NCBI RefSeq assembly: GCF_014803895.1
Contig: NZ_JAAVAU010000030.1
Location: forward strand, 1 to 50,241
Source: Lactobacillus sp.
GTDB taxonomy: Bacteria; Bacillota; Bacilli; Lactobacillales; Lactobacillaceae
DNA length: 50,241 nucleotides
Reading direction: 5' to 3'
Positions within the stretch are counted from its first letter, which is position 1, and each line of letters opens with the position of its first letter. The position numbers and the translations under genes were made by a program. The notes beneath the pieces were generated by a model that worked only from the letters and a program-made list of their open reading frames with translations, had not been told where the DNA came from and did no database searches. This document shows, one piece after another, positions 900 through 30,017 of the stretch.

Positions 900-3144
900 T
901 TATGTTCAACCGGGTTTTATTTTTTTACTTGCTATTGCTTGTACAGTATTATCTTTTTTGCTTTTTCAAGCACAAGAATTTGGACATTACATAATTGGAA
1001 TAACAATTTTTATTTATTTAGTAAGTTTACTTTTTTATAAATTTTCTAAATTGAGGCTAGAAATACTTGTAGTAATAGCTTTATTTGGACTTATTTCCTA
1101 TCACCATAAAAATACAGTACTAAAAATCAATTTAAATATGCCATTAAAAATAAATTGTGATCAAGTAAAAATAAATAATTCTTTTTTATCAGGAGAAGCT
1201 ACTTTAGGAAAACAAAAAGTATTACTTTCAATGAAGGCTGACAAAAGAATTGAAGATTTAATTCAAAATGGTAGAAGTTTTTATCTAATTAAAATAAAAA
1301 CTGAGGCCGAGGAAATTGAAAGAGCTACTAACCCAGGCCAATTTGATTTTGCCAATTACTATAGGGGTCGGAGAATAAAGTACCGTTTGAAGATTAGTGA
1401 ATATCAAGTATTTTTAAAAAAGCAGACTATTTTAGATAAGCTTCATTTTTGGCGATTTCAAATTCAAAAATATTTAAGGTCAATGCCGAAGTTAACTTCA
1501 TTTTTAGCAAGTGAAATGATTTTGGCAGAAAATCCTGATCAAGAGAATAAAACAATTATAAATAATTATCGAGATTTAGGAGTTATTCATTTATTAAGTA
1601 TTTCAGGATTACACGTATCATTGTACACAACTGCAATTGGGTTAATGGCTACTTATTGTAAGCGTACTCAAAAAGAGATTATTATATATTGTTTAATATT
1701 CTTAATATTAGAGATATTTCTTTCAAAATTTCAGCCTGGGTTTGTGAGGGCTAGTTTAAGTTATGCTTATGGTAAATTTTTTAATCAGAAAAAAATTCCG
1801 ATTACTAATGCCGATAAATTAGGAATGGTAGGATTGACTCATTTATTTATTAATCCTACTTTATTTTTATCACCTGGAGCTATTTTAAGCTATTTATTAG
1901 TAACTGGATTAGAGTTAACAAAAAATACTTCGCGATTAAAGCAGGGGTTGCTTTTAAATTTACTAATTCTACCTCTGCTGTTACATTATTTCTATAAAGT
2001 AAATATTTTAACTCCATTTTTTAATTTCGTGATTGTACCGATTTTTAATTTTGTTTTATTACCATGTACCTTTTTTGCAGTAATTATTTTTCCATTTTTA
2101 CCTAAAATAGTAGATGTGATTGAAGTTATTTTTCAAATTATTATGAATTTTATTGATTGGTTAGCTCAAACTGGCTTAGGAAAAATTATTTTTGGGCAAA
2201 TAAATTGGTGGCAAACTTTATTAGGTATTGTGGTTACTTGTGTTTTTTTAATATATATAAAAAATAAGAAAATTAAGCGTTGGACATTTGGTATATTAGG
2301 CTTTTCTTATGTAATATTTTTTGTTTTAATTCATTTTCCTTTATACGGGCAAGTTTCGTTTATTGATGTGGGACAAGGGGATAGTATTTTAATTACAACA
2401 CCCATAAATCGCAAAGTATATTTAATTGATACAGGTGGAAAATTGAAATTTGGAAATTATAAGCATAGTGAGCCACAACTTAACCAAATTACTATTCCTT
2501 TTTTACAAGCACAAGGAATAGAAAAAATTGATGGTGTCTTTTTGTCACATCAAGATGCTGATCATATTGGTGATTTAGCCCCGTTACTAGAACAAATTAA
2601 AGTAGATAAGTTATATTTTGCGGAGGGGTTAACAAATAATATTAGTTTTCAAAAACGAATTAAAGATAAAGTAAACTGTACAAAGTTAATACCTCTATTG
2701 GCAGGAGATAAAGTTAAAGCTTCAGGAATAACTTTTCATGTGGTATATCCATTTGAACGAGGATTAGGTAAAAATGAAGATTCATTATCCTTATTTTTTG
2801 AATTAGCTCATCAAAAATGGTTGATGACTGGTGACTTAGATCAAGCAGGTGAACAAAAAATTTTTGAACACTACCCTTCTTTAAAAGTTGATTATTTTAA
2901 GTTAGGACATCATGGGAGTAGAACATCTTCGAATATAGATTTTTTACATGCTATTGAACCTAAAATGGTATTTATTTCTTCTGGTCGCCAAAATAGATTT
3001 GGACATCCTCATATTGAAACTTTAACTACTTTAAAAAAGTTGCATCTTCCATATTTAAACACGCAAGATAGTGGTACAATAACTTGGACTTATTCCATTT
3101 TTGGCAATCAAAGGATTTATACTTTTTTAAAAAAGGAAAAATAA
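853..3144 (+). CDS. comEC: ComEC/Rec2 DNA internalisation channel
   Basis: Polytopic membrane protein that moves single-stranded DNA into the cytoplasm during transformation. The N-terminal part is hydrophobic with a DUF4131-like segment, the centre is the Competence domain (LLSISGLHVSLYTTAIGL), and the C-terminal third is a metallo-beta-lactamase fold with FIDVGQGDSILI, SHQDADHIGDL, MTGDLD and KLGHHGSR motifs. All metal-ligand positions look intact and length (763 aa) is normal. The start is uncertain: ATG 853 overlaps comEA by 47 bp, and TTG 868 is an alternative. holA follows with a 1-base stop/start overlap. The gene appears intact, so the strain may retain DNA uptake machinery. Confidence 0.93.
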   Translation: MGKKLLKSLKINWNYNYVQPGFIFLLAIACTVLSFLLFQAQEFGHYIIGITIFIYLVSLLFYKFSKLRLEILVVIALFGLISYHHKNTVLKINLNMPLKINCDQVKINNSFLSGEATLGKQKVLLSMKADKRIEDLIQNGRSFYLIKIKTEAEEIERATNPGQFDFANYYRGRRIKYRLKISEYQVFLKKQTILDKLHFWRFQIQKYLRSMPKLTSFLASEMILAENPDQENKTIINNYRDLGVIHLLSISGLHVSLYTTAIGLMATYCKRTQKEIIIYCLIFLILEIFLSKFQPGFVRASLSYAYGKFFNQKKIPITNADKLGMVGLTHLFINPTLFLSPGAILSYLLVTGLELTKNTSRLKQGLLLNLLILPLLLHYFYKVNILTPFFNFVIVPIFNFVLLPCTFFAVIIFPFLPKIVDVIEVIFQIIMNFIDWLAQTGLGKIIFGQINWWQTLLGIVVTCVFLIYIKNKKIKRWTFGILGFSYVIFFVLIHFPLYGQVSFIDVGQGDSILITTPINRKVYLIDTGGKLKFGNYKHSEPQLNQITIPFLQAQGIEKIDGVFLSHQDADHIGDLAPLLEQIKVDKLYFAEGLTNNISFQKRIKDKVNCTKLIPLLAGDKVKASGITFHVVYPFERGLGKNEDSLSLFFELAHQKWLMTGDLDQAGEQKIFEHYPSLKVDYFKLGHHGSRTSSNIDFLHAIEPKMVFISSGRQNRFGHPHIETLTTLKKLHLPYLNTQDSGTITWTYSIFGNQRIYTFLKKEK

Positions 3145-4133
3145 TGACTCTTTTAAAGCTTTTTAAACAAACTCATCCTCAAACAAAAAATATCTTAATT
3201 GAGGGTGGGGATGCATTTTTTAATAATTATTTAGCACAAAATTATGCTCAGCAACTACAGTTTAAGGATTTTGAATTTATTACAGTAGATTGTAATGAAG
3301 ACGGAATTGATGAATTAATAGCTACCTTGACAGAATCTTCATTGTTTGGTGAACGTAAGTTAGTAGTGGTAAAAAATCCTTTTTTTCTAACTCCGAAGGT
3401 TGCAGCTAAGTTTAAGAAAAAAATTAAACAGTTAGAAAAAATTATTGATCATTTAAATGAATTAGATGACATTATAATATTTGTTGCTAATTATGATAAA
3501 TTAGATCGACGCAAAAAAATTACTAAGTGTCTTATTAATCAGGTTAATGTAATAAATACAGCACTAAAACCTTACGAAATAAGTGGGGTGATAAAGGCTA
3601 TTTCGAAAGAAGAGGGTTTTCAATTCACTAATCGGGCTCTACAAATTTTATTGCAACGTAGTGATCAAGTATTAGACTCGGTTTTAAGTAATTATATTAA
3701 ATTAAAAAATATTTGTGATACTGATCATCGTATTACTGAAACTTTAGTTGAGCAAAATATTGATCGGTCTTTATCAGAAAATATTTTTGAAATTTTATCG
3801 ACGGCGTTTAAAGGAAATATTGCTCAAGCAATCCAACGCTTAAATGATCACTTACTTGAGGGAAATAACGTAGTACAATTAATAGCAATTTTTGAAAGTC
3901 AAATAGAATTTTTACTATGTGTAAAAACTCTGGAAAATAGAAAATGGAGTAAGGATCAAATTACAAAAGAATTAGGTGCTAATCCTTATCGGGTAAAATT
4001 TGCTATGCAAAATAGGGTATCGTTAAGCAAGCTTAAAAAATTGATGACGCAAATTATTGAGTTGGATTTTAACTATAAAATGGGAAATTATCATGGTGAT
4101 GAATTTTTAAAATTATTTTTATTAAATATATAA
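3144..4133 (+). CDS. holA: DNA polymerase III subunit delta
   Basis: Clamp-loader subunit that opens the beta sliding clamp. The frame is open from 3084, but ATG 3144 sits after AAGGAAAAA and overlaps the comEC stop (TAATG), which suggests translational coupling; this gives 329 aa, standard for HolA. N-terminal AAA+-like domain lacks a functional P-loop, as is usual for delta. Typical segments include FFNNYLAQNYAQQL, ESSLFGERKLVVVKNP and the C-terminal LLCVKTLENRKWSKDQI region. holA after comEC is the common Firmicutes order. A strong terminator follows. Confidence 0.93.
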   Translation: MTLLKLFKQTHPQTKNILIEGGDAFFNNYLAQNYAQQLQFKDFEFITVDCNEDGIDELIATLTESSLFGERKLVVVKNPFFLTPKVAAKFKKKIKQLEKIIDHLNELDDIIIFVANYDKLDRRKKITKCLINQVNVINTALKPYEISGVIKAISKEEGFQFTNRALQILLQRSDQVLDSVLSNYIKLKNICDTDHRITETLVEQNIDRSLSENIFEILSTAFKGNIAQAIQRLNDHLLEGNNVVQLIAIFESQIEFLLCVKTLENRKWSKDQITKELGANPYRVKFAMQNRVSLSKLKKLMTQIIELDFNYKMGNYHGDEFLKLFLLNI

Positions 4134-18211: not shown

Positions 18212-20965
18212 ATGGAACAAATAACCTTATCTAAACAAGCATTATCTTTATGGGGTAAGAAAAAAGTTAATCATAATAACGAAAAACAATGGTTGCCATT
18301 AGTTGCGCACTTAGTTGATACCAAGAATGTTATTGGCTGGTTATACAATCACTGGCTTGATACTGGACAAAGAAATATTTTGAACAAAATTTTTGATAAT
18401 AGTGATGATATTCAAAATCTGGTTGCATTTTTAGGCTATATTCATGATATTGGAAAGGCTACCCCAGCTTTTCAAACTAAGGAATCCTTTGTACATAATA
18501 AAGATTTAGACCAAGAGTTATTAGAAAAACTTATAAGGAACGGTTTTACTGGATTAGATGACTTAAATTTACAGGAGCCACGTAAGTCACTTCATGCTGT
18601 AGCAGGGGAGACAATTTTAGAAAATGCAGGTTTATGTGAAAGTGTCGGCGCCATTATTGGTGGACACCATGGTAAACCTCAAGAAGAATATTTTGATTAT
18701 GAAGATCAATTAGATAATTACACTGCTAATTATTATCAGTCTGATATGTATAAAGAAAATCCTACCCGTGAAAAATGGGAAAGAGTACAAAATGAGTTAA
18801 TTAATTACGGATTATCATTATGTAATTTAAATAGTCTTGAAGATATTCCAGAAATAACTCAACCACAGGCGGTTATCTTGGAAGGCTTAGTCATTATGGC
18901 TGACTGGTTGGCTTCAAGTGAGTTTATTATAAAAGATGAACAAAAAATACCTCTATTTCCATTAATTTCTGTTGATCAAGGTTTTACAGATATTGATGAA
19001 ACTCAAAGATACCATCAAGGGATTATGAATTGGCTTAATACAGATTCATGGACTCCTCAACCAATCCTTCAACCTGAAAAGCAATATCAGAAACGTTGGA
19101 ATTTTAATCCCAGAGCTGTACAACAAGAAATGTCTAAAATAATAGGTGACAGCGTTGATCCGGGAATGATAATCATTGAAGCACCAATGGGTATTGGTAA
19201 AACAGAAATTGCTTTAATGGCTGTAGAGCAACTAGCTGCTAAAACTGGGAGAAATGGTCTTTTCTTTGGCTTGCCTACTCAAGCAACTTCGAATGCTATG
19301 TTTGAAAGAGTTGATAAATGGCTTAATGAAATTGCAGAAGAGGAAGATATTAAAATCCCAATTAAATTAATGCATGGGAAAGCTCAATTTAATAAAAAAT
19401 ATCGCAAAATTCCTAAGGCAGAGAACATTGAATCAGATGAAGGCTCAGTTGTAGTTAATGAGTGGTTCAATGGAAAAAAGTCAATTTTAACTGACTTTGT
19501 AATTGGAACTATTGATCAATTACTTTTAATGGGATTAAAGCAGAAACATTTAGCTTTGCGACATTTGGGACTAAGTGGCAAAGTTGTAGTTATTGATGAA
19601 GTCCACGCTTATGATACTTATATGGATTCCTATTTAGAAAAAGCAATTGAATGGTTGGGAGCGTATAATGTTTCTGTGATTGCTTTATCTGCTACTTTGC
19701 CTGTAGCTAAAAGAAATAGTTTGTTAAAAGCATATGCTAAGGGAAAATACGGTAGTAAAAAATTTAAAACTAAGGATGATAGTTGGCAATCATGTCAAGC
19801 ATATCCATTACTTAGCATGTTAGATGGGCGAAAATTAATACAAACAACAGAATTTGAAGCACCTAAGACACCAACTCATGTCGCAGTAACTCGCTTAAAT
19901 GTTGAAGATGATAAAGTAATTAAGCAAGTCAATAATAAGATAAAAAATGGTGGGGTAGCTGGTGTTATTGTCAATACTGTTAAGAGAGCGCAGATGTTAG
20001 CACAAATTGCGAAAGAAAAAGTAGATAATGATACACAAGTTTTACTCTTACATTCAGCGTTTTTAGCTACAGATAGAAGTAAACGCGAAGATGATCTTCA
20101 AGACTTAATTGGCAAGGGAAAACAAAGACCTCAAAAATTAATTGTTATTGGTACTCAAGTTTTAGAACAATCTCTAGATATTGACTTTGATGTAATGTTT
20201 ACAGATATTGCACCAATAGACTTGATTTTACAAAGAGCAGGCCGTCTACATCGTCACCAAATTGATAGACCACAAGGTTTAGAAAATCCACGGCTTTATG
20301 TAATGGGTATTAAGAGTTTGGGGGACTACGATGAAGGAACTGAAGCTATTTATGAACAGTATCTTTTAATGAAGACAGATTACTTTTTGAAAGATGAAAT
20401 TGATTTACCTAGCGATATTTCTCCACTGGTTCAAGACGTATATTCTGAGGATACTGATTCTGAGGTTGAAAATATTGCAGAAGCTAAGGCAAAATTAGAT
20501 GTTGATCAACATGAAGCTAAAAGGAAAGCTAGAGGATATCAAATTATGCCACCTGAGGATGACGAAACTTTGCATGGTTGGCTAGATAATTCAAACAAGG
20601 CTTCTGAACTTAGTGACATTAAAGCTGAAGCTGCAGTGAGAGATACCCAAGAAAGTATTGAAGTTATTTTACTTCGTAAGAAAGATAATGATTATTACTT
20701 GCTGAGCGGAGAAAATATCAAAGATGTGTCTGATGATATTGTGGCGCAACAAATAATTCGTTTGCCACATGCATTGACAATGGATATAGAGAAGTCCATC
20801 GAAACTTTAGAAAGTATTACCCAAACTAATTTTCCAGGATGGAAAGATAGTGTATGGCTTCGTGGAGCAATAGCTTTAGTATTAGATGAAAATAATGAAG
20901 TTGAATTTGGAAATTATAAAGTTAAGTATTCTTCTGATTTTGGATTAAGTTATGAAAAAGTGTAA
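18212..20965 (+). CDS. cas3: Cas3 helicase-nuclease, type I-E
   Basis: Recruited by Cascade to nick and degrade target DNA. 917 aa. The N-terminal HD nuclease has H33 and H78-D79 (GYIHDIGKATPAF) and GGHHGK. The SF2 helicase follows with Walker A APMGIGKTE, Walker B VVIDEVHAYD, SATLP, and motifs V/VI in LEQSLDIDFD and LILQRAGRLHRH. All key residues are present, so interference should be possible. It is separated from cas8e by about 200 bp holding its own small transcription unit, instead of being directly joined to the Cascade genes. The last ~25 bp also contain a promoter for that unit. Confidence 0.97.
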   Translation: MEQITLSKQALSLWGKKKVNHNNEKQWLPLVAHLVDTKNVIGWLYNHWLDTGQRNILNKIFDNSDDIQNLVAFLGYIHDIGKATPAFQTKESFVHNKDLDQELLEKLIRNGFTGLDDLNLQEPRKSLHAVAGETILENAGLCESVGAIIGGHHGKPQEEYFDYEDQLDNYTANYYQSDMYKENPTREKWERVQNELINYGLSLCNLNSLEDIPEITQPQAVILEGLVIMADWLASSEFIIKDEQKIPLFPLISVDQGFTDIDETQRYHQGIMNWLNTDSWTPQPILQPEKQYQKRWNFNPRAVQQEMSKIIGDSVDPGMIIIEAPMGIGKTEIALMAVEQLAAKTGRNGLFFGLPTQATSNAMFERVDKWLNEIAEEEDIKIPIKLMHGKAQFNKKYRKIPKAENIESDEGSVVVNEWFNGKKSILTDFVIGTIDQLLLMGLKQKHLALRHLGLSGKVVVIDEVHAYDTYMDSYLEKAIEWLGAYNVSVIALSATLPVAKRNSLLKAYAKGKYGSKKFKTKDDSWQSCQAYPLLSMLDGRKLIQTTEFEAPKTPTHVAVTRLNVEDDKVIKQVNNKIKNGGVAGVIVNTVKRAQMLAQIAKEKVDNDTQVLLLHSAFLATDRSKREDDLQDLIGKGKQRPQKLIVIGTQVLEQSLDIDFDVMFTDIAPIDLILQRAGRLHRHQIDRPQGLENPRLYVMGIKSLGDYDEGTEAIYEQYLLMKTDYFLKDEIDLPSDISPLVQDVYSEDTDSEVENIAEAKAKLDVDQHEAKRKARGYQIMPPEDDETLHGWLDNSNKASELSDIKAEAAVRDTQESIEVILLRKKDNDYYLLSGENIKDVSDDIVAQQIIRLPHALTMDIEKSIETLESITQTNFPGWKDSVWLRGAIALVLDENNEVEFGNYKVKYSSDFGLSYEKV

Positions 20966-20968
20966 AAT
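20940..20968 (+). promoter_or_regulatory. Promoter of the crRNA-like RNA, embedded in the cas3 3' end
   Basis: TTGGAT (20940-20945), 17-bp spacer, TAAAAT (20963-20968); the -10 overlaps the cas3 stop codon region. A start about 7 nt downstream would fall on the first base of the degenerate repeat (20975). About 20 of 30 bases match the array promoter at 27870-27899, including -35, -10 and spacing. Confidence 0.6.
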
Positions 20969-20974
20969 GTAAGG

Positions 20975-21082
20975 GTGATCCTCATGTAGGTGAGGGTGAT
21001 CCTGTTAGTTATATTTCTAAAGAGTAATCCTCATTTTATGAGGCGGCGATATCAATTAAGTGATGTTGCCTTTTTATTTTTT
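20975..21082 (+). ncRNA. Degenerate mini-CRISPR encoding a crRNA-like (CreR-type) RNA
   Basis: First pseudo-repeat 20975-21003: 29 nt, 21 identical to the array repeat without gaps. Its hairpin CCTCAT-GTAG-GTGAGG keeps pairing through changes on both sides compared with CCCCAC-GAAT-GTGGGG, and its last eight bases GTGATCCT match the crRNA 5' handle GTGATCCC at 7 of 8. Pseudo-spacer 21004-21023 (20 nt). Second pseudo-repeat 21024-21053 begins GTAATCC (array GTATTCC) with hairpin CCTCAT-TTT-ATGAGG. A rho-independent terminator overlaps its end. Seen directly: repeat similarity, hairpins, promoter and terminator. Inferred: Cas6e processing and loading into Cascade. The pseudo-spacer matches the cas8e promoter. 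No toxin ORF is present, so it resembles CreR regulators and not a CreTA toxin-antitoxin pair. Confidence 0.7.
21045..21082 (+). terminator. Terminator of the crRNA-like RNA
   Basis: GGCGATATCA (21045-21054) pairs with TGATGTTGCC (21061-21070) as ten pairs, two of them G-U, with a 6-nt loop, followed by TTTTTATTTTTT. It also separates cas3 from cas8e. Confidence 0.75.
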
Positions 21083-21103
21083 ATAAAACACTTGTAAATG
21101 ACT

Positions 21104-21131
21104 TTGTTAAGATGTATTTTTTAAATATAAA
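21104..21131 (+). promoter_or_regulatory. Promoter of the Cascade operon (cas8e onward)
   Basis: TTGTTA (21104-21109), 16-bp spacer, TATAAA (21126-21131). A weaker alternative is TTGTAA (21092-21097) with TATTTT (21115-21120). The first puts the transcription start near 21138, inside the pseudo-spacer match. Confidence 0.55.
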
Positions 21132-21132
21132 T

Positions 21133-21152
21133 GTTAGATATATATCTATAAA
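21133..21152 (+). promoter_or_regulatory. Candidate Cascade operator: match to the pseudo-spacer
   Basis: 16 of 20 bases equal the pseudo-spacer at 21004-21023. Mismatches are at positions 6, 12, 17 and 19. Positions 1-5, 7-11 and 13-16 match. The PAM-side trinucleotide is AAT (21130-21132), overlapping the -10. Type I-E Cascade leaves every sixth base unpaired, so positions 6 and 12 should not matter. Partial pairing of this length would be expected to allow binding without Cas3 cleavage. Confidence 0.6.
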
Positions 21153-21167
21153 AAGGAGTGATAATGA

Positions 21168-22859
21168 GTGAATAGTAAATTGCGTTTTAATTTGGTAACA
21201 GATCCATGGATCAAAGTAATCAGTAAAGATGATTATGCTGAAAAAGAGATCTCCCTAACTGAATTATTTCAAAATATTGGTAAATATTATCAACTTACTG
21301 GTGATACCCGCGCTCAAGATTTAGCGATACTGCGTTTTTTATTATCGATACTTTTAACTGTCTATACTCGTTTTGATGCTGATGATGAACAGTATGAGTG
21401 GTTAAAATTAGATGATAAATGGCGAGTGGTTGAGATAGATGATGATATCGATAAGTTGAATAAGATATTATTGAAAACTTGGAAGCAAATTTATAAACAG
21501 CAGGGTTTCACTGATAAAGTAGTAGAGTATTTAAATAAGTACAAGAATAAATTTGATTTATTTGGCGATACTCCCTTTTATCAGGTTACTAGAGAAGTAT
21601 ATGATCAAAATGTTGATGCTAAAAAGCAAGTTTCTAAAGGAAAAGGTACAGTAGCCGTTAAGCAGATAAATCGCAGAATCTCTGAAAGCAATAACACACC
21701 GTCTATATTCTCTCCTAAATCCGAAGAGGAGAAAAATAAAACGAACTTTGCTGAATTAACGAGATGGTTGATTACCTATCAGAATTTTTCTGGAGTTACT
21801 GATAAAACTAAGGTATCCTCAAAAGAAAAATTTTCAGTATCCAAGGGATGGCTATATTCGATTTCTCCTGTTTTTGTTAAGGGCAATGACTTATTTGAAA
21901 CATTAATGTTCAATTTAACATTGATAAATGATAAAGATGAAGACCTAAGAGTACTTAAGCAAAAACCAGTTTGGGAATATGAAGATATTAATGAATATAT
22001 TCAGCGTCGATTGACTGCGAAGTTTCCTGACAATTTGGCAGAATTATATACACTCTGGAGTAGGATGCTCCATATTGAGTGGGATGAGGATAAACCAACT
22101 ATTTTTACTGCTGGATTACCAAAAGTTGATAGTGATGGAATCTTTTTAGAACCAATGACTACCTGGCGTAAAGATAAAAAAGGTGTAGAAAGTCCAGCGA
22201 CTAAGAATAGAAATAATTTAAATATTGCTATGTGGCGTAATTTTGGTCAATATGTACCAGTTGCTGTGAAAAAAAATGATGATGACCCACGTACTCCAAT
22301 AATGGTAAATTGGATTCGGAATCTTAAAAATAAGGGGTTTATTCCTAAACTTAGAAGTATAAACTTAGTTTCTGTAGCGATGATTAGTGATGGAAATACC
22401 TCGCAATCTCCATATGCAGAAGTAGTCAATAATATGGAAGCTGAAGCTGGGGTATTATTTGACGATGATCATGAATTTGCTAAAAGATGGCCTGTAAAAA
22501 TTGAATCTGTAGTTATAGATACGCAAAAAATTGCAAGTTATTTCTACTGGTTTGCAAAAGAATTTTCTGAACTTCGAGGCATAAAAGATAATAGCTGGGC
22601 CAATAAAGCAACAGCACGGTTTTATGATCAGTTGAATATACCGTTTTATGCATGGCTTTCGAGTTTAACGAATGATGACGATCGTGAGGTTAAAGTCAAA
22701 GAATGGCGAAAAATTTTAACCCAAATCGTTACTCAGCAAGCTAGAGAAATCTTTACATTATCAGCTTCACAGGAAATAATTGGTAGAGATAAGCAGAATG
22801 TCTTTACTATCTATAATAAATTAAGAAGAAATATACATGTATATTTCAAATCAAAGTAA
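21168..22859 (+). CDS. cas8e: Cas8e (Cse1/CasA), Cascade large subunit
   Basis: Large Cascade subunit that reads the PAM and recruits Cas3. 563 aa, beginning with the family-typical LRFNLVTDPWIKVI; other typical parts are FDLFGDTPFYQV and LTRWLITYQNFSGVTDK. The start is GTG 21168, 9 nt after AGGAG; the upstream ATG 21164 runs into a stop after three codons. It opens the Cascade-adaptation operon (cas8e-cse2-cas7e-cas5e-cas6e-cas1-cas2), with short gaps or overlaps throughout, and has its own promoter. Confidence 0.95.
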   Translation: MNSKLRFNLVTDPWIKVISKDDYAEKEISLTELFQNIGKYYQLTGDTRAQDLAILRFLLSILLTVYTRFDADDEQYEWLKLDDKWRVVEIDDDIDKLNKILLKTWKQIYKQQGFTDKVVEYLNKYKNKFDLFGDTPFYQVTREVYDQNVDAKKQVSKGKGTVAVKQINRRISESNNTPSIFSPKSEEEKNKTNFAELTRWLITYQNFSGVTDKTKVSSKEKFSVSKGWLYSISPVFVKGNDLFETLMFNLTLINDKDEDLRVLKQKPVWEYEDINEYIQRRLTAKFPDNLAELYTLWSRMLHIEWDEDKPTIFTAGLPKVDSDGIFLEPMTTWRKDKKGVESPATKNRNNLNIAMWRNFGQYVPVAVKKNDDDPRTPIMVNWIRNLKNKGFIPKLRSINLVSVAMISDGNTSQSPYAEVVNNMEAEAGVLFDDDHEFAKRWPVKIESVVIDTQKIASYFYWFAKEFSELRGIKDNSWANKATARFYDQLNIPFYAWLSSLTNDDDREVKVKEWRKILTQIVTQQAREIFTLSASQEIIGRDKQNVFTIYNKLRRNIHVYFKSK

Positions 22860-22868
22860 GGGGATAGT

Positions 22869-23522
22869 ATGAGTAACAAAAAGAATACTATTCGTTCTAT
22901 AACAGCACGAATAATTTATCAACTATATAATAATGGAGAAATTAATAAAGGCGTTTTGGCTACATTAAGAAGAACTACTTCTATGGCTGATAAAGGAGCT
23001 GAAAAAGTTTGGCCATTTATTTTTGATAATATAGCAACTGATAATAAAAATGCGCAGATTAATATTTTGAGTACAAATGGTAATCCTACTAGACAGGAAA
23101 ATGCTATTTATACGGCATTACATTGTTATGCAATGTTTCAACAAGGAATTGACCAAACATGTGTATACGCTGCTTCCACTACTAGAAAAGATGAAGAAGG
23201 GTCCGAAGAAAAAGGTCTTACGCTTTTTAGCGCCTTAAGAATGGTGAAAAATAGTGATTCTAAAGTTGCAGAAGCTTTAGATAGACGAGTAACAGTACTG
23301 TTAGCGACAACAAACATAAATAGTGCTATTAAATCAATCACTCATTTGGTAAGTATGCTTAAAGGCAAAAAACTAGGATTCAAAATTGATTTTGCCCAAT
23401 TAGCCAGTGACTTAAATGTGTTTCAGATTAGCCCCAAGACAGCTAGAGAAATTGCTTTAAAGTGGGGAAGAGATTATTACTGGAATACCTATGCACTAAA
23501 AAATCAAAATGAAGAAAATTAA
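22869..23522 (+). CDS. cse2: Cse2 (CasB/Cas11e), Cascade small subunit
   Basis: Small helical subunit that stabilises the R-loop along the Cascade belly. 217 aa, with the family-typical start region GVLATLRRTTSMADKGAEKVWPFIF and basic helices in the C-terminal part (RMVKNSDSKVAEALDRR). Starts 10 bp after cas8e with RBS AAGGGGAT. Slightly longer than the E. coli protein. Confidence 0.93.
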   Translation: MSNKKNTIRSITARIIYQLYNNGEINKGVLATLRRTTSMADKGAEKVWPFIFDNIATDNKNAQINILSTNGNPTRQENAIYTALHCYAMFQQGIDQTCVYAASTTRKDEEGSEEKGLTLFSALRMVKNSDSKVAEALDRRVTVLLATTNINSAIKSITHLVSMLKGKKLGFKIDFAQLASDLNVFQISPKTAREIALKWGRDYYWNTYALKNQNEEN

Positions 23523-23547
23523 TCATGATTCAAGGAGAAAGAATAAA

Positions 23548-24657
23548 ATGAAGAATATGTATTTAGATATTAATTTATTACAAACTGTGCCATCCTCAAA
23601 TATTAACCGTGATGATACTGGTTCCCCTAAAACTGCAATTTACGGTGGTGTGCCTCGTTCAAGAGTTTCATCTCAAAGTTGGAAGAGAGCAATGCGGTTA
23701 GCATTTGAGGAAGAAACTAAGGATGCAGAGTGGCTGGAGAGCTATCGTACATTGAAAGCACCAACTATTTTGGCTAAAAAATTACAAAAACTTGATAATG
23801 AATTAAGTGATAAAGATGCAAATGAGAAAGCAGAGAAAATTTTTAAAGCTGCTGGAATAAAGGGTCTTGATAAGAATAAAGATACGGGAGAGTATTCAAC
23901 TAAAGCATTGCTCTTGGTTAGTGACGGTCAGTTGGAAAAAATTGCTAAATTTACTTTAGAGATTGATAAATTAGATAAAGATGCAGCAAAAGAAATCAAA
24001 AATATTTTAATGGGTAATCAATCATTAGACTTAGCTCTTTTTGGTAGAATGGTGGCTGATAATCCCGAATTGAATGTTGATGCGTCTAGTCAAGTAGCTC
24101 ATGCTGTTTCTACTCATGAAGTTACACCAGAATTTGATTTTTATACTGCAGTAGATGATGTTAAAGAAGATAATGAATCTGGGTCAGCTATGTTGGGAAC
24201 ACTTGAATATAATTCTTCAACTTTGTATAGATATGCAAATGTGAATGTTAGAGACTTAATGCATAATTTAGGTAGTAAGGACTTAACTTTAGAAGGTTTG
24301 AAGTTATTTATCAAAGATTTCATCATGACAATGCCAACGGGTAAGGAAAATAGCTATGCTAACAAGACTTTGCCACAATACGTGCTGATTAATGTACGTG
24401 ATGATACACCAGTTAACTTAGTATCTGCTTTTGAAACGCCGGTTAACTCAAATGGAGGATATGTAAATGCTTCAATTAAGCGATTAGAAGCGGAAAATAA
24501 GAATAGCTTAAAATTTGTTGATCAGCCAATATTTAGTATTGCTTTAACAAGTAAAGAATCTAAGATTGATAATGAAGCCCAAAATATTGATGATTTGATT
24601 AATCAAACTACTGAGTTTATTGGTCAGGAGTTAAAAGATGAAGACAGCAACGATTAG
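23548..24657 (+). CDS. cas7e: Cas7e (Cse4/CasC), Cascade backbone subunit
   Basis: Six copies form the Cascade backbone on the crRNA spacer. 369 aa starting MKNMYLDINLLQTVPSSNIN, then NRDDTGSPKTAIYGGVPRSR and SSQSWKRAMR, all conserved in this family. ATG 23548 follows CAAGGAGA; the frame extends upstream to 23509 inside cse2, but without a good RBS. The 3' end overlaps cas5e by 20 bp. Confidence 0.95.
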   Translation: MKNMYLDINLLQTVPSSNINRDDTGSPKTAIYGGVPRSRVSSQSWKRAMRLAFEEETKDAEWLESYRTLKAPTILAKKLQKLDNELSDKDANEKAEKIFKAAGIKGLDKNKDTGEYSTKALLLVSDGQLEKIAKFTLEIDKLDKDAAKEIKNILMGNQSLDLALFGRMVADNPELNVDASSQVAHAVSTHEVTPEFDFYTAVDDVKEDNESGSAMLGTLEYNSSTLYRYANVNVRDLMHNLGSKDLTLEGLKLFIKDFIMTMPTGKENSYANKTLPQYVLINVRDDTPVNLVSAFETPVNSNGGYVNASIKRLEAENKNSLKFVDQPIFSIALTSKESKIDNEAQNIDDLINQTTEFIGQELKDEDSND

Positions 24658-25360
24658 ATTAACTGCGCCCTTGCAGTCGTACGGAAATCAGGCTGATTTT
24701 AATCAGAGAACGACGAATTATTATCCAACAAAGAGTGCAATTATTGGTATGGTTGCTGCAGCATTGGGTTATCAAAGGGATAATTCTAGAATTGAAGAAT
24801 TAAATAAATTACTAGTAGCCGTTCGGATTGAACAACCGAGTAAAATGATGACTGAATTTCAAACGGTAGAATATCATAAAAGTTCAACTAAAACTGCTCG
24901 TAAGTTAACTTATCGTCAGTTTTTGCAAGATGCTGTTTTTGTGGTAGCAATTGGCAGTAATGATAATCAAGCAATTGATCAATTAATTAACGCTTTGAAA
25001 CATCCTAAATTTCAACTTTATTTAGGAAGAAGATCTAATCCACCTGCAGGACCGCTGAAAGTTGATGATTTTCAAGATAAAAATCCAATCCAAGTTTTAG
25101 AAGATTTACCTTGGCAAGCTTCTAAATGGTACCAGAAAAAATTCCCTAAAAAAGAATTCACAGCTAAAATAATCGCAGATGCTGTCCTTATTCCTGATGG
25201 TAAAGTGATTTTTACCAAGGATAAGGTAGGTTCGTTTAATCAAAAAGATAGATATCATAAATATCGCGCAATAACAGAAAAGAAAGTTCAACTTGAAAAC
25301 CTTGAATATGAGCAAGAAAAACATTTTCGTAGTGATTTAGATTATTGGTCAGCTATTTAG
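24638..25360 (+). CDS. cas5e: Cas5e (CasD), Cascade 5'-handle-binding subunit
   Basis: Caps the 5' end of the crRNA. 240 aa with the RAMP-type N-terminus TATIRLTAPLQSYGNQADF, YPTKSAIIGMVAAALGY and LGRRSNPPAGPL, all typical of I-E Cas5. Starts within the end of cas7e, with the RBS CAGGAG inside that gene. Confidence 0.95.
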   Translation: MKTATIRLTAPLQSYGNQADFNQRTTNYYPTKSAIIGMVAAALGYQRDNSRIEELNKLLVAVRIEQPSKMMTEFQTVEYHKSSTKTARKLTYRQFLQDAVFVVAIGSNDNQAIDQLINALKHPKFQLYLGRRSNPPAGPLKVDDFQDKNPIQVLEDLPWQASKWYQKKFPKKEFTAKIIADAVLIPDGKVIFTKDKVGSFNQKDRYHKYRAITEKKVQLENLEYEQEKHFRSDLDYWSAI

Positions 25361-25370
25361 GAGGATAATT

Positions 25371-27908
<2,538 letters not shown>

Positions 27909-27937
27909 GAAGGTTATAACAACGGGCTTTAATTACT

Positions 27938-28263
27938 GTATTCCCCACGAATGTGGGGGTGATCCCCGGAAAGCAGATTATTTTTAGTGAAAACAAAAGT
28001 ATTCCCCACGAATGTGGGGGTGATCCCATTAGTAGGTAAGACTGCACCGCAATATAATAGTATTCCCCACGAATGTGGGGGTGATCCCAATAAAGCTATG
28101 CGTGGGCTTAGATACTGAAAGTATTCCCCACGAATGTGGGGGTGATCCCATTGTTTATACCGACAAAGCAGGCTGGAAAAAGTATTCCCCACGAATGTGG
28201 GGATGATCCCAAGCAATAACAATTAATTTACAAGTCCAAACAGTATTCCCCACGAATGTGGGG
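27938..28263 (+). CRISPR. Type I-E CRISPR array, 6 repeats and 5 spacers
   Basis: Repeat of 29 bp (GTATTCCCCACGAAT followed by GTGGGGGTGATCCC) starting at 27938, 27999, 28060, 28121, 28182 and 28243: an exact 61-bp period and 32-nt spacers. Repeats 1-4 are identical, repeat 5 has one G-to-A change (GGGGATGATCCC), and repeat 6 loses the array sequence after GTGGGG. Degeneration at the far end and cas2 at the near end set the orientation. Every spacer is preceded by C, so the last repeat base may derive from the PAM. Spacer targets could not be identified here. Confidence 0.98.
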
Positions 28264-28312
28264 TCATTCTAGAGTAATTTATAATCTACATAGATTATAA
28301 AGACTAACCGAG
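28258..28312 (+). repeat. CRISPR trailer, copy A of a 55-bp direct repeat
   Basis: Starts inside the terminal repeat (GTGGGGTCAT) and ends ACTAACCGAG. It matches 29930-29984 at 50 of 55 bases. Contains the dyad TAATCTA-CA-TAGATTA. Confidence 0.85.
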
Positions 28313-28340
28313 GCATTCATTCCTTTAGTTAGTCTTTTTT
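28301..28340 (+). terminator. Terminator of the CRISPR array
   Basis: AGACTAAC (28301-28308) pairs with GTTAGTCT (28328-28335), followed by TTTTTT. The 5' arm lies within the duplicated trailer. Confidence 0.75.
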
Positions 28341-29848: not shown

Positions 29849-29929
29849 TTTGTTGCACGTTCAAAAGCGATAAATGTTGATGTATCAGTTGATTACAACG
29901 GTTATATAATACCTTGATTACGAACGCAA

Positions 29930-29984
29930 GTGGGGTCATCCTAGAGTAATTTGTAATCTATATAGATTATCAAGACTAACTGAG
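29930..29984 (+). repeat. CRISPR trailer, copy B of the 55-bp direct repeat
   Basis: 50 of 55 bases equal 28258-28312, from GTGGGGTCATCC to ACTAACTGAG. The dyad is perfect here (TAATCTATATAGATTA). Upstream, ACGAACGCAAGTGGGG looks like a mutated terminal repeat. The 3' arm of the array terminator is missing, so this copy is truncated. Confidence 0.8.
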
Positions 29985-30017
29985 TGATTCTGATATGAAC
30001 CCTAAAATTAGGACATA

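Follow-up and report, generated by a model that had tools for sequence, protein, structure and literature searches.

A putative small-RNA unit between cas3 and cas8e

The window, i.e., the whole stretch of 50,241 nt of Lactobacillus sp. contig NZ_JAAVAU010000030.1 that was analysed, contains a type I-E CRISPR (clustered regularly interspaced short palindromic repeats) locus comprising cas3, cas8e, cse2, cas7e, cas5e, cas6e, cas1e, a cas2e-DnaQ fusion and an array. The helicase-nuclease gene cas3 (18212–20965, plus strand; an open reading frame of 917 aa matching NCBIfam cas3_core and cas3_HD) is separated by a gap of 202 nt from cas8e (cse1; 21168–22859, plus strand), the first gene of the Cascade/adaptation operon. 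The cas8e reading frame matches NCBIfam casA_cse1 with E = 1.2e-15, which lies under the curated cut-off; it has 1223 homologues, and PF09481 is present on the 120 that were listed. The gap contains a putative small-RNA unit (20940–21082, plus strand), which is the subject of this work.

A preliminary description of this DNA had reported two degenerate repeats around a 20-nt pseudo-spacer in the cas3–cas8e gap, and we find them at 20975–21052, with each named element where that description placed it. Pseudo-repeat 1 (20975–21003, plus strand) begins 9 nt after the cas3 stop codon and shares 21 of 29 bases with the array repeat, the same count as before. Its stem, CCTCAT/GTGAGG, is formed by 20980–20985 paired with 20990–20995, and is followed by the 8-nt handle GTGATCCT at 20996–21003, which begins exactly where an RNA start had been proposed. 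The corresponding stem of the array repeat is CCCCAC/GTGGGG. The pseudo-spacer, or guide, GTTAGTTATATTTCTAAAGA occupies 21004–21023 (20 nt, plus strand). Pseudo-repeat 2 (21024–21052, plus strand) has lost the 3′ handle and keeps a hairpin with the 6-bp stem CCTCAT/ATGAGG, so that the change of the third stem pair from C-G to T-A is seen in both repeats, as had been described. With repeats that match the array repeat at 21/29 and 11/29 positions and a spacer of 20 nt, the unit is not an ordinary array, which would have near-identical repeats and spacers of ~32 nt. A search against Rfam gave no match close to the gathering score.

The unit ends in an intrinsic terminator (21045–21082, plus strand) that overlaps the end of pseudo-repeat 2 and was identified by a terminator scan: a 10-bp stem (21045–21070), a 6-nt loop and a T-run. 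Two terminator-like sites were found in 20900–21200, compared with a shuffle mean of 0.1, the second being the repeat 2 hairpin on the minus strand, and the terminator fold has z = −4.2. The terminator claimed earlier is thus strong and well above shuffled sequences. A promoter of the unit's own had also been proposed. A putative promoter motif, TTGGAT-N17-TAAAAT, is indeed present at 20940–20968 (plus strand), overlapping the 3′ end of cas3, but it matches only 8 of 12 consensus bases and is absent from the promoter scan output. Within cas3, an equal score occurs at 0.9% of positions at the exact spacing and at 9% within ±2 nt with spacings of 16–18. Because equal scores are so common across cas3, this motif is weak evidence for a promoter.

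Match between the guide and the cas8e promoter region

The key point, overlooked in the preliminary description, is that the pseudo-spacer has a match in the cas8e promoter region of the window itself. A near copy of GTTAGTTATATTTCTAAAGA, namely GTTAGATATATATCTATAAA, begins at 21133, 129 nt downstream of the guide, with AAT directly 5′ of it. The target (21130–21149, plus strand) therefore consists of a protospacer-adjacent motif (PAM), AAT, at 21130–21132 and a protospacer at 21133–21149. Guide and near copy differ at positions 6, 12, 17 and 19, the first three of which fall within the first 17. Since the type I-E Cascade leaves every sixth base unpaired (PMC12871591), 14 of the 15 positions read in this stretch match. 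Counted in this way, the target ranks first among the 13,423 AA-PAM sites of the window, both strands included, and the runner-up scores 12. Shuffled guides match the cas promoter regions of the window equally well in 3 of 20,000 cases when the 15 read positions are scored and in 78 of 20,000 when all 17 are, so the match in the window alone is good but not overwhelming. Matches were also sought in plasmids by DNA with the gap, in viral contigs with Cas8e and in phages with the array, and none were found.

The −10 candidates lie immediately upstream of the target, which is about 36 nt 5′ of the cas8e start. One putative cas8e promoter, TTGTAA-N17-TATTTT (21092–21120, plus strand), matches 8 of 12 consensus bases, and a rival candidate, TTGTTA-N16-TATAAA, which starts at 21103, matches 9 of 12. 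In the two nearest relatives (L104 and L001), TTGTAA-N17-TATTAT is found at the matching distance before cas8e. Judged by consensus and position, the site matched by the guide would be the active cas8e promoter. The best guide matches listed for the window include none near the start of cas3, and cas3 therefore appears to stand outside the proposed loop. Within the target, in the cas8e start region, lies a perfect 14-nt palindrome, TAGATATATATCTA (21135–21148), which could serve as a protein operator as well.

Recurrence in type I-E loci of Lactobacillaceae

We surveyed 75 I-E loci from a Cas8e alignment together with 76 upstream regions from genomes found by a Cas8e search, which matched 25 of the 75 genomes from the genus and 77 of 397 sampled across the family. 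Removal of identical upstream sequences left 105 loci, including the window, where a locus counts as distinct if the 400 nt before its cas8e are not identical to those of another. Candidates were defined as a hairpin with a GTGATCC-like handle after it, located near a cas start and outside arrays, and their guides were scored against the locus's own cas promoter regions with an AA PAM required.

Of 348 non-array candidates, 29 scored at least 13/15 against their own promoter regions, compared with 42 of 35,844 pairings with the promoter regions of other loci and none of 322 array spacers paired with their own, for which the maximum was 11. When a handle match of 6/7 was also required, 28 of the 105 loci qualified. 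In a stricter scan of the first 76 loci with a threshold of at least 14, the corresponding counts were 15/243 for own pairings, 0/20,100 for cross pairings and 0/236 for array spacers. The 28 loci are not all independent, because some share near-identical stretches or guides: an identical 120-nt stretch is still common to three pairs (L002/L003, L021/L107 and L037/L040), the same guide occurs in L021 and L107, and another guide is common to L063, L109 and L114.

The outcome depends somewhat on how arrays are delimited. A loose scan with neither array masking nor a PAM was swamped by array self-matches and was superseded by the masked scans. An early rule, which took a candidate for an array spacer whenever a second one lay 61 nt from it, gave 3 of 232 'array' spacers with scores of 13–14 (L004, L022 and L044); these are degenerate units beside cas3 with a match to their own promoter. 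The later rule also demanded that the repeats be at least 25/29 alike, and all three were thereby counted as non-array, whereas a looser repeat-likeness rule put L004 back among the arrays. The least clear-cut members are L004, which is located at its array's end, and L044, whose spacer is full-length. Excluded from the 28 were L051, L054 and L062 (11/15, with a seed of 10/10) and a second row of L162 (handle 5/7); also not counted were L026 and L043, which have fitting guides and stems of 4 pairs, and L023, with a solo repeat and a score of 12/15. The scan's reach is limited in that 12 of the 105 loci lack cas3 or offer fewer than 450 nt ahead of it; the other negative loci may lack the unit or carry a form missed by the scan.

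Two loci depart from the usual arrangement. In L023 (3850–3950), the single repeat before cas8e, perhaps a one-repeat form, has its 12/15 match just upstream of itself, and no cas3 lies upstream on the same strand. In L017 (1030–1160), the match of the unit to its cas promoter region is on the other strand and lies upstream of the unit; this is the sole minus-strand case among the 28.

The unit stands before cas3, at the head of the operon, in 23 of the 28 loci, and between cas3 and cas8e in the other five: the window, L001 (L. hamsteri), L104 (Cas8e 60% identical to that of the window), L066 (Ligilactobacillus agilis) and L178 (a divergent I-E system, Cas8e 32%). Thirteen loci were listed with a cas3–cas8e gap of at least 60 nt or with no cas3. 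In five of these (L009, L057, L060, L072 and L074) the gap is only apparent, since the cas3 match continues in frame to cas8e: an internal stop, from gene decay or sequencing error, accounts for the first four and an artefact of the stop search for L074. Three (L023, L073 and L075) have no same-strand cas3 upstream. The five true gaps among the 105 loci all carry a unit aimed before cas8e. In an alignment of the gaps of the window, L104 and L001, GAGGGTGATCC within pseudo-repeat 1, the handle and GTAATCC at the start of pseudo-repeat 2 are invariant, whereas the guide between them differs; that of L104 matches the region before its own cas8e at 17 of 17 positions.

The L. hamsteri gap (L001, 2769–3985) is unusual in holding a Fic-domain gene (2935–3732) between cas3 and the small-RNA unit. 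The end of cas3 and the first pseudo-repeat hairpin are duplicated to the left of this gene, the left copy being without a handle, and the arrangement resembles an insertion in which part of the unit was copied. Within this locus, the guide has no AA-PAM site above 10/15 other than the cas8e promoter region, so that the Fic gene is not targeted, and the duplicated pseudo-repeat, tested likewise, gave the same result.

Cascade signature in guides, stems and PAMs

A position-blind selection, in which 17 positions were treated alike and neither stem nor PAM was required, passed 43 sites, 31 of them with an AA PAM; of the 12 others, 8 are repeat or array self-matches, as judged by reading. In the 31 sites, which include likely chance rows (L029, L108 at 694 and L178 at 845), position 6 is mismatched in 14 and position 12 in 19, compared with 26 of 434 cells elsewhere in positions 1–16. 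Positions 17–20 are mismatched in 12, 17, 12 and 15 sites, respectively; position 18 is not distinct because the match fades from 17 onward. Stems of 5–6 pairs, none of which had been required, accompany 27 of the 31 guide-bearing sites and 57 of 244 handle-like sites with no target. Although the base following the selected AA was not itself selected for, it is T or C in all 28 loci. AAT has been validated as a PAM in a cell-free test of the Ligilactobacillus salivarius I-E Cascade (PMC11288051); the same study notes AAY at three self-target sites.

Guides differ between loci, and each fits its own promoter region. Among pairs of loci with similar guides, a change at a read position has its counterpart on the other side in 89 cases and lacks one in 43, compared with 3 matched and 38 unmatched at positions 6 and 12; these pairs are non-independent and were all chosen for matching, so it is the contrast between the two classes of position that counts. 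Guide and target have changed together at positions 6, 14 and 15 in L021 versus L106 and at positions 5 and 11 in L005 versus L008. By evolution alone, then, these natural pairs show guide bases 6 and 12 to be free to differ and the PAM to be AA followed by T or C.

Model of autorepression and alternative explanations

We conclude with high confidence that the unit is a guide gene of the CreR (cas-regulating RNA) type belonging to this type I-E system. The preliminary description had guessed at CreR or CreA; this was right in kind, and the guess can now be joined to a target with a PAM before the window's own cas8e and to guide–target pairs in 27 other loci. A crRNA-like (CRISPR RNA-like) unit of degenerate repeats around a pseudo-spacer stands beside cas genes, and its guide has limited complementarity, next to a PAM, to the putative promoter of those genes. 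The anatomy, the guide–target match, the PAM, the mismatch pattern and the recurrence with different sequences in related loci are observed directly; transcription, processing, loading, repression and its release are what we infer from them.

In the proposed mechanism, the transcript would come either from the weak promoter in the cas3 tail or from read-through of cas3 followed by Cas6e cleavage, which we consider equally possible. Cas6e would cut below the hairpin of pseudo-repeat 1, leaving the 5′ handle GTGATCCT, and the 3′ end of the small RNA would lie at the hairpin of pseudo-repeat 2. Cascade loaded with this guide would read AAT-GTTAG-x-TATAT-x-TCTA in the cas8e promoter region and remain bound where the cas8e operon starts, very probably repressing it and thereby limiting its own synthesis. 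In E. coli, 5 bp can be enough for Cascade to bind, but interference and priming need >18 bp (PMC5904413). The match in the window extends to position 16, including two unread bases, and should thus be too short for interference. With pairing of about this length, Cascade would block the site without calling Cas3. Ordinary crRNAs or anti-CRISPRs that draw Cascade away would ease the repression.

Several observations weigh against this reading: (i) Pseudo-repeat 2 is only weakly similar to the array repeat (11/29 ungapped, 13/29 with one gap), and the small-RNA promoter is weak. (ii) In the fold of the whole unit, repeat 1 pairs with repeat 2 in place of two separate hairpins (−37 kcal/mol, z = −5.6), which could hinder processing. 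(iii) The AT-rich and partly palindromic sequence of the target in the window raises the odds of a chance match, and the loose scan also found a minus-strand match of 13/17 with the PAM TTT. (iv) At the threshold used, 77 of the 105 loci have no such unit. (v) Off-target binding of Cascade in E. coli is reported to leave local gene expression unaffected (PMC5904413), and binding alone does not, therefore, prove repression. (vi) The reading is a prediction from sequence.

Degenerate repeats and a short spacer might also be expected of the decayed end of a former CRISPR array that has no function and matches the promoter by chance, as partial matches come easily in AT-rich sequence. Such an origin would not account for own-promoter matches far above both the cross-locus and the array-spacer controls, or for a handle and stem that are kept while the guide varies and tracks its target, and the PAM and the pattern of unread bases suit Cascade; we regard it as extremely improbable. 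Hardly more credible is that the two hairpins act in cis, as a terminator or attenuator or as a Cas6e-binding site in the 3′ untranslated region of cas3, with the guide match secondary. The strong terminator and the stable joint fold of repeats 1 and 2 would suit this, but a guide fitting a site 129 nt downstream, a PAM and tolerance at positions 6 and 12 would then be needless. Both of these readings were dismissed on the multi-locus comparison.

An addiction module of the CreTA type, in which repression by the guide falls on a small toxin, either RNA or protein, and not on the cas genes, deserves slightly more weight and is still very unlikely. CreA genes look alike, with two degenerate repeats (PMC8501985), and the corresponding gap of L. 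hamsteri does contain a Fic-domain gene. However, the target lies about 36 nt before cas8e, the stretch between the terminator and cas8e holds short frames only, and in L. hamsteri the sole AA-PAM site above 10/15 is before cas8e and not at the Fic gene. A guide aimed at the promoter of an adjacent toxin gene was not found by this frame-based assessment, outside the reach of which a toxic RNA with no frame would fall.

Within the CreR-type reading, the position of the unit admits a further and tentative proposal, toward which we lean less than against it. In the clade of the window, the loop would have moved inside the operon, such that a CreR in the cas3 tail represses only the Cascade and adaptation genes and leaves cas3 outside. 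Should CreR be processed out of read-through transcripts of cas3, its supply would follow cas3 transcription as well, and the circuit would then set the ratio of Cascade to Cas3 and not the total.

Relation to known systems

CreR autorepression is reported for types I-B, I-E and V-A (PMC13131331), and competition by crRNAs and relief by anti-CRISPRs have been described for it (PMC12737573). The unit in the window resembles CreR, as presented in these two reviews, in being crRNA-like with a short guide that partly matches a cas promoter; it differs in sitting between cas3 and cas8e and aiming before cas8e, and its expression and repressive action are predictions from sequence. With CreA of CreTA it shares the plan of two degenerate repeats that give a guide repressing a promoter (PMC8501985, PMC9458426), but no toxin gene was found in the gap of the window, and the target lies before a cas gene. 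Racr, the RNA anti-CRISPRs of phages, are likewise repeat-like small RNAs outside arrays (PMC10651486); these, however, are virus-encoded solitary repeats, whereas the unit in the window lies in a cas operon and has a guide and a target.

The preliminary description had presented such a unit as unfamiliar in a Lactobacillus I-E locus. A literature search for CreR or cas-regulating RNA together with Lactobacillus found no paper, within a scope that left out most subscription journals, but the kind has precedent, as CreR autorepression has been described for type I-E (PMC13131331). CreR in type I-E is thus already known in kind, and the unit in the window is a clear new example. Two features may be new, namely a position within the operon that spares cas3 from the loop and, in natural guides, the trace that evolution has left at the unread bases; neither turned up in the literature searched, within the same scope. 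The survey points to RNA-guided self-control of CRISPR in many I-E systems of Lactobacillaceae and supplies exact guide–target pairs. For editing with the native I-E systems of lactobacilli, it suggests possible self-repression of the cas operon and a possible response of this operon to the supply of crRNA.

Remaining features of the locus

Downstream of cas8e, the open reading frames of cse2, cas7e, cas5e, cas6e, cas1e and the cas2e-DnaQ fusion, assigned with NCBIfam, extend over 22869–27908 (plus strand). Array detection places the CRISPR array at 27938–28271 (plus strand), with 6 repeats, of which the final one is degenerate, and 5 spacers; the true array repeat spacing is 61 nt. The stretch from the cas2e-DnaQ stop to the first array repeat (27909–27937) measures ~30 nt, which is short for a leader, and given this the array may be truncated or secondary. 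The trailing end of the array and its flank (28245–28318) are repeated with 84% identity at 29917–29990, 1.7 kb downstream, as if a second array had formerly been present there and since been lost.

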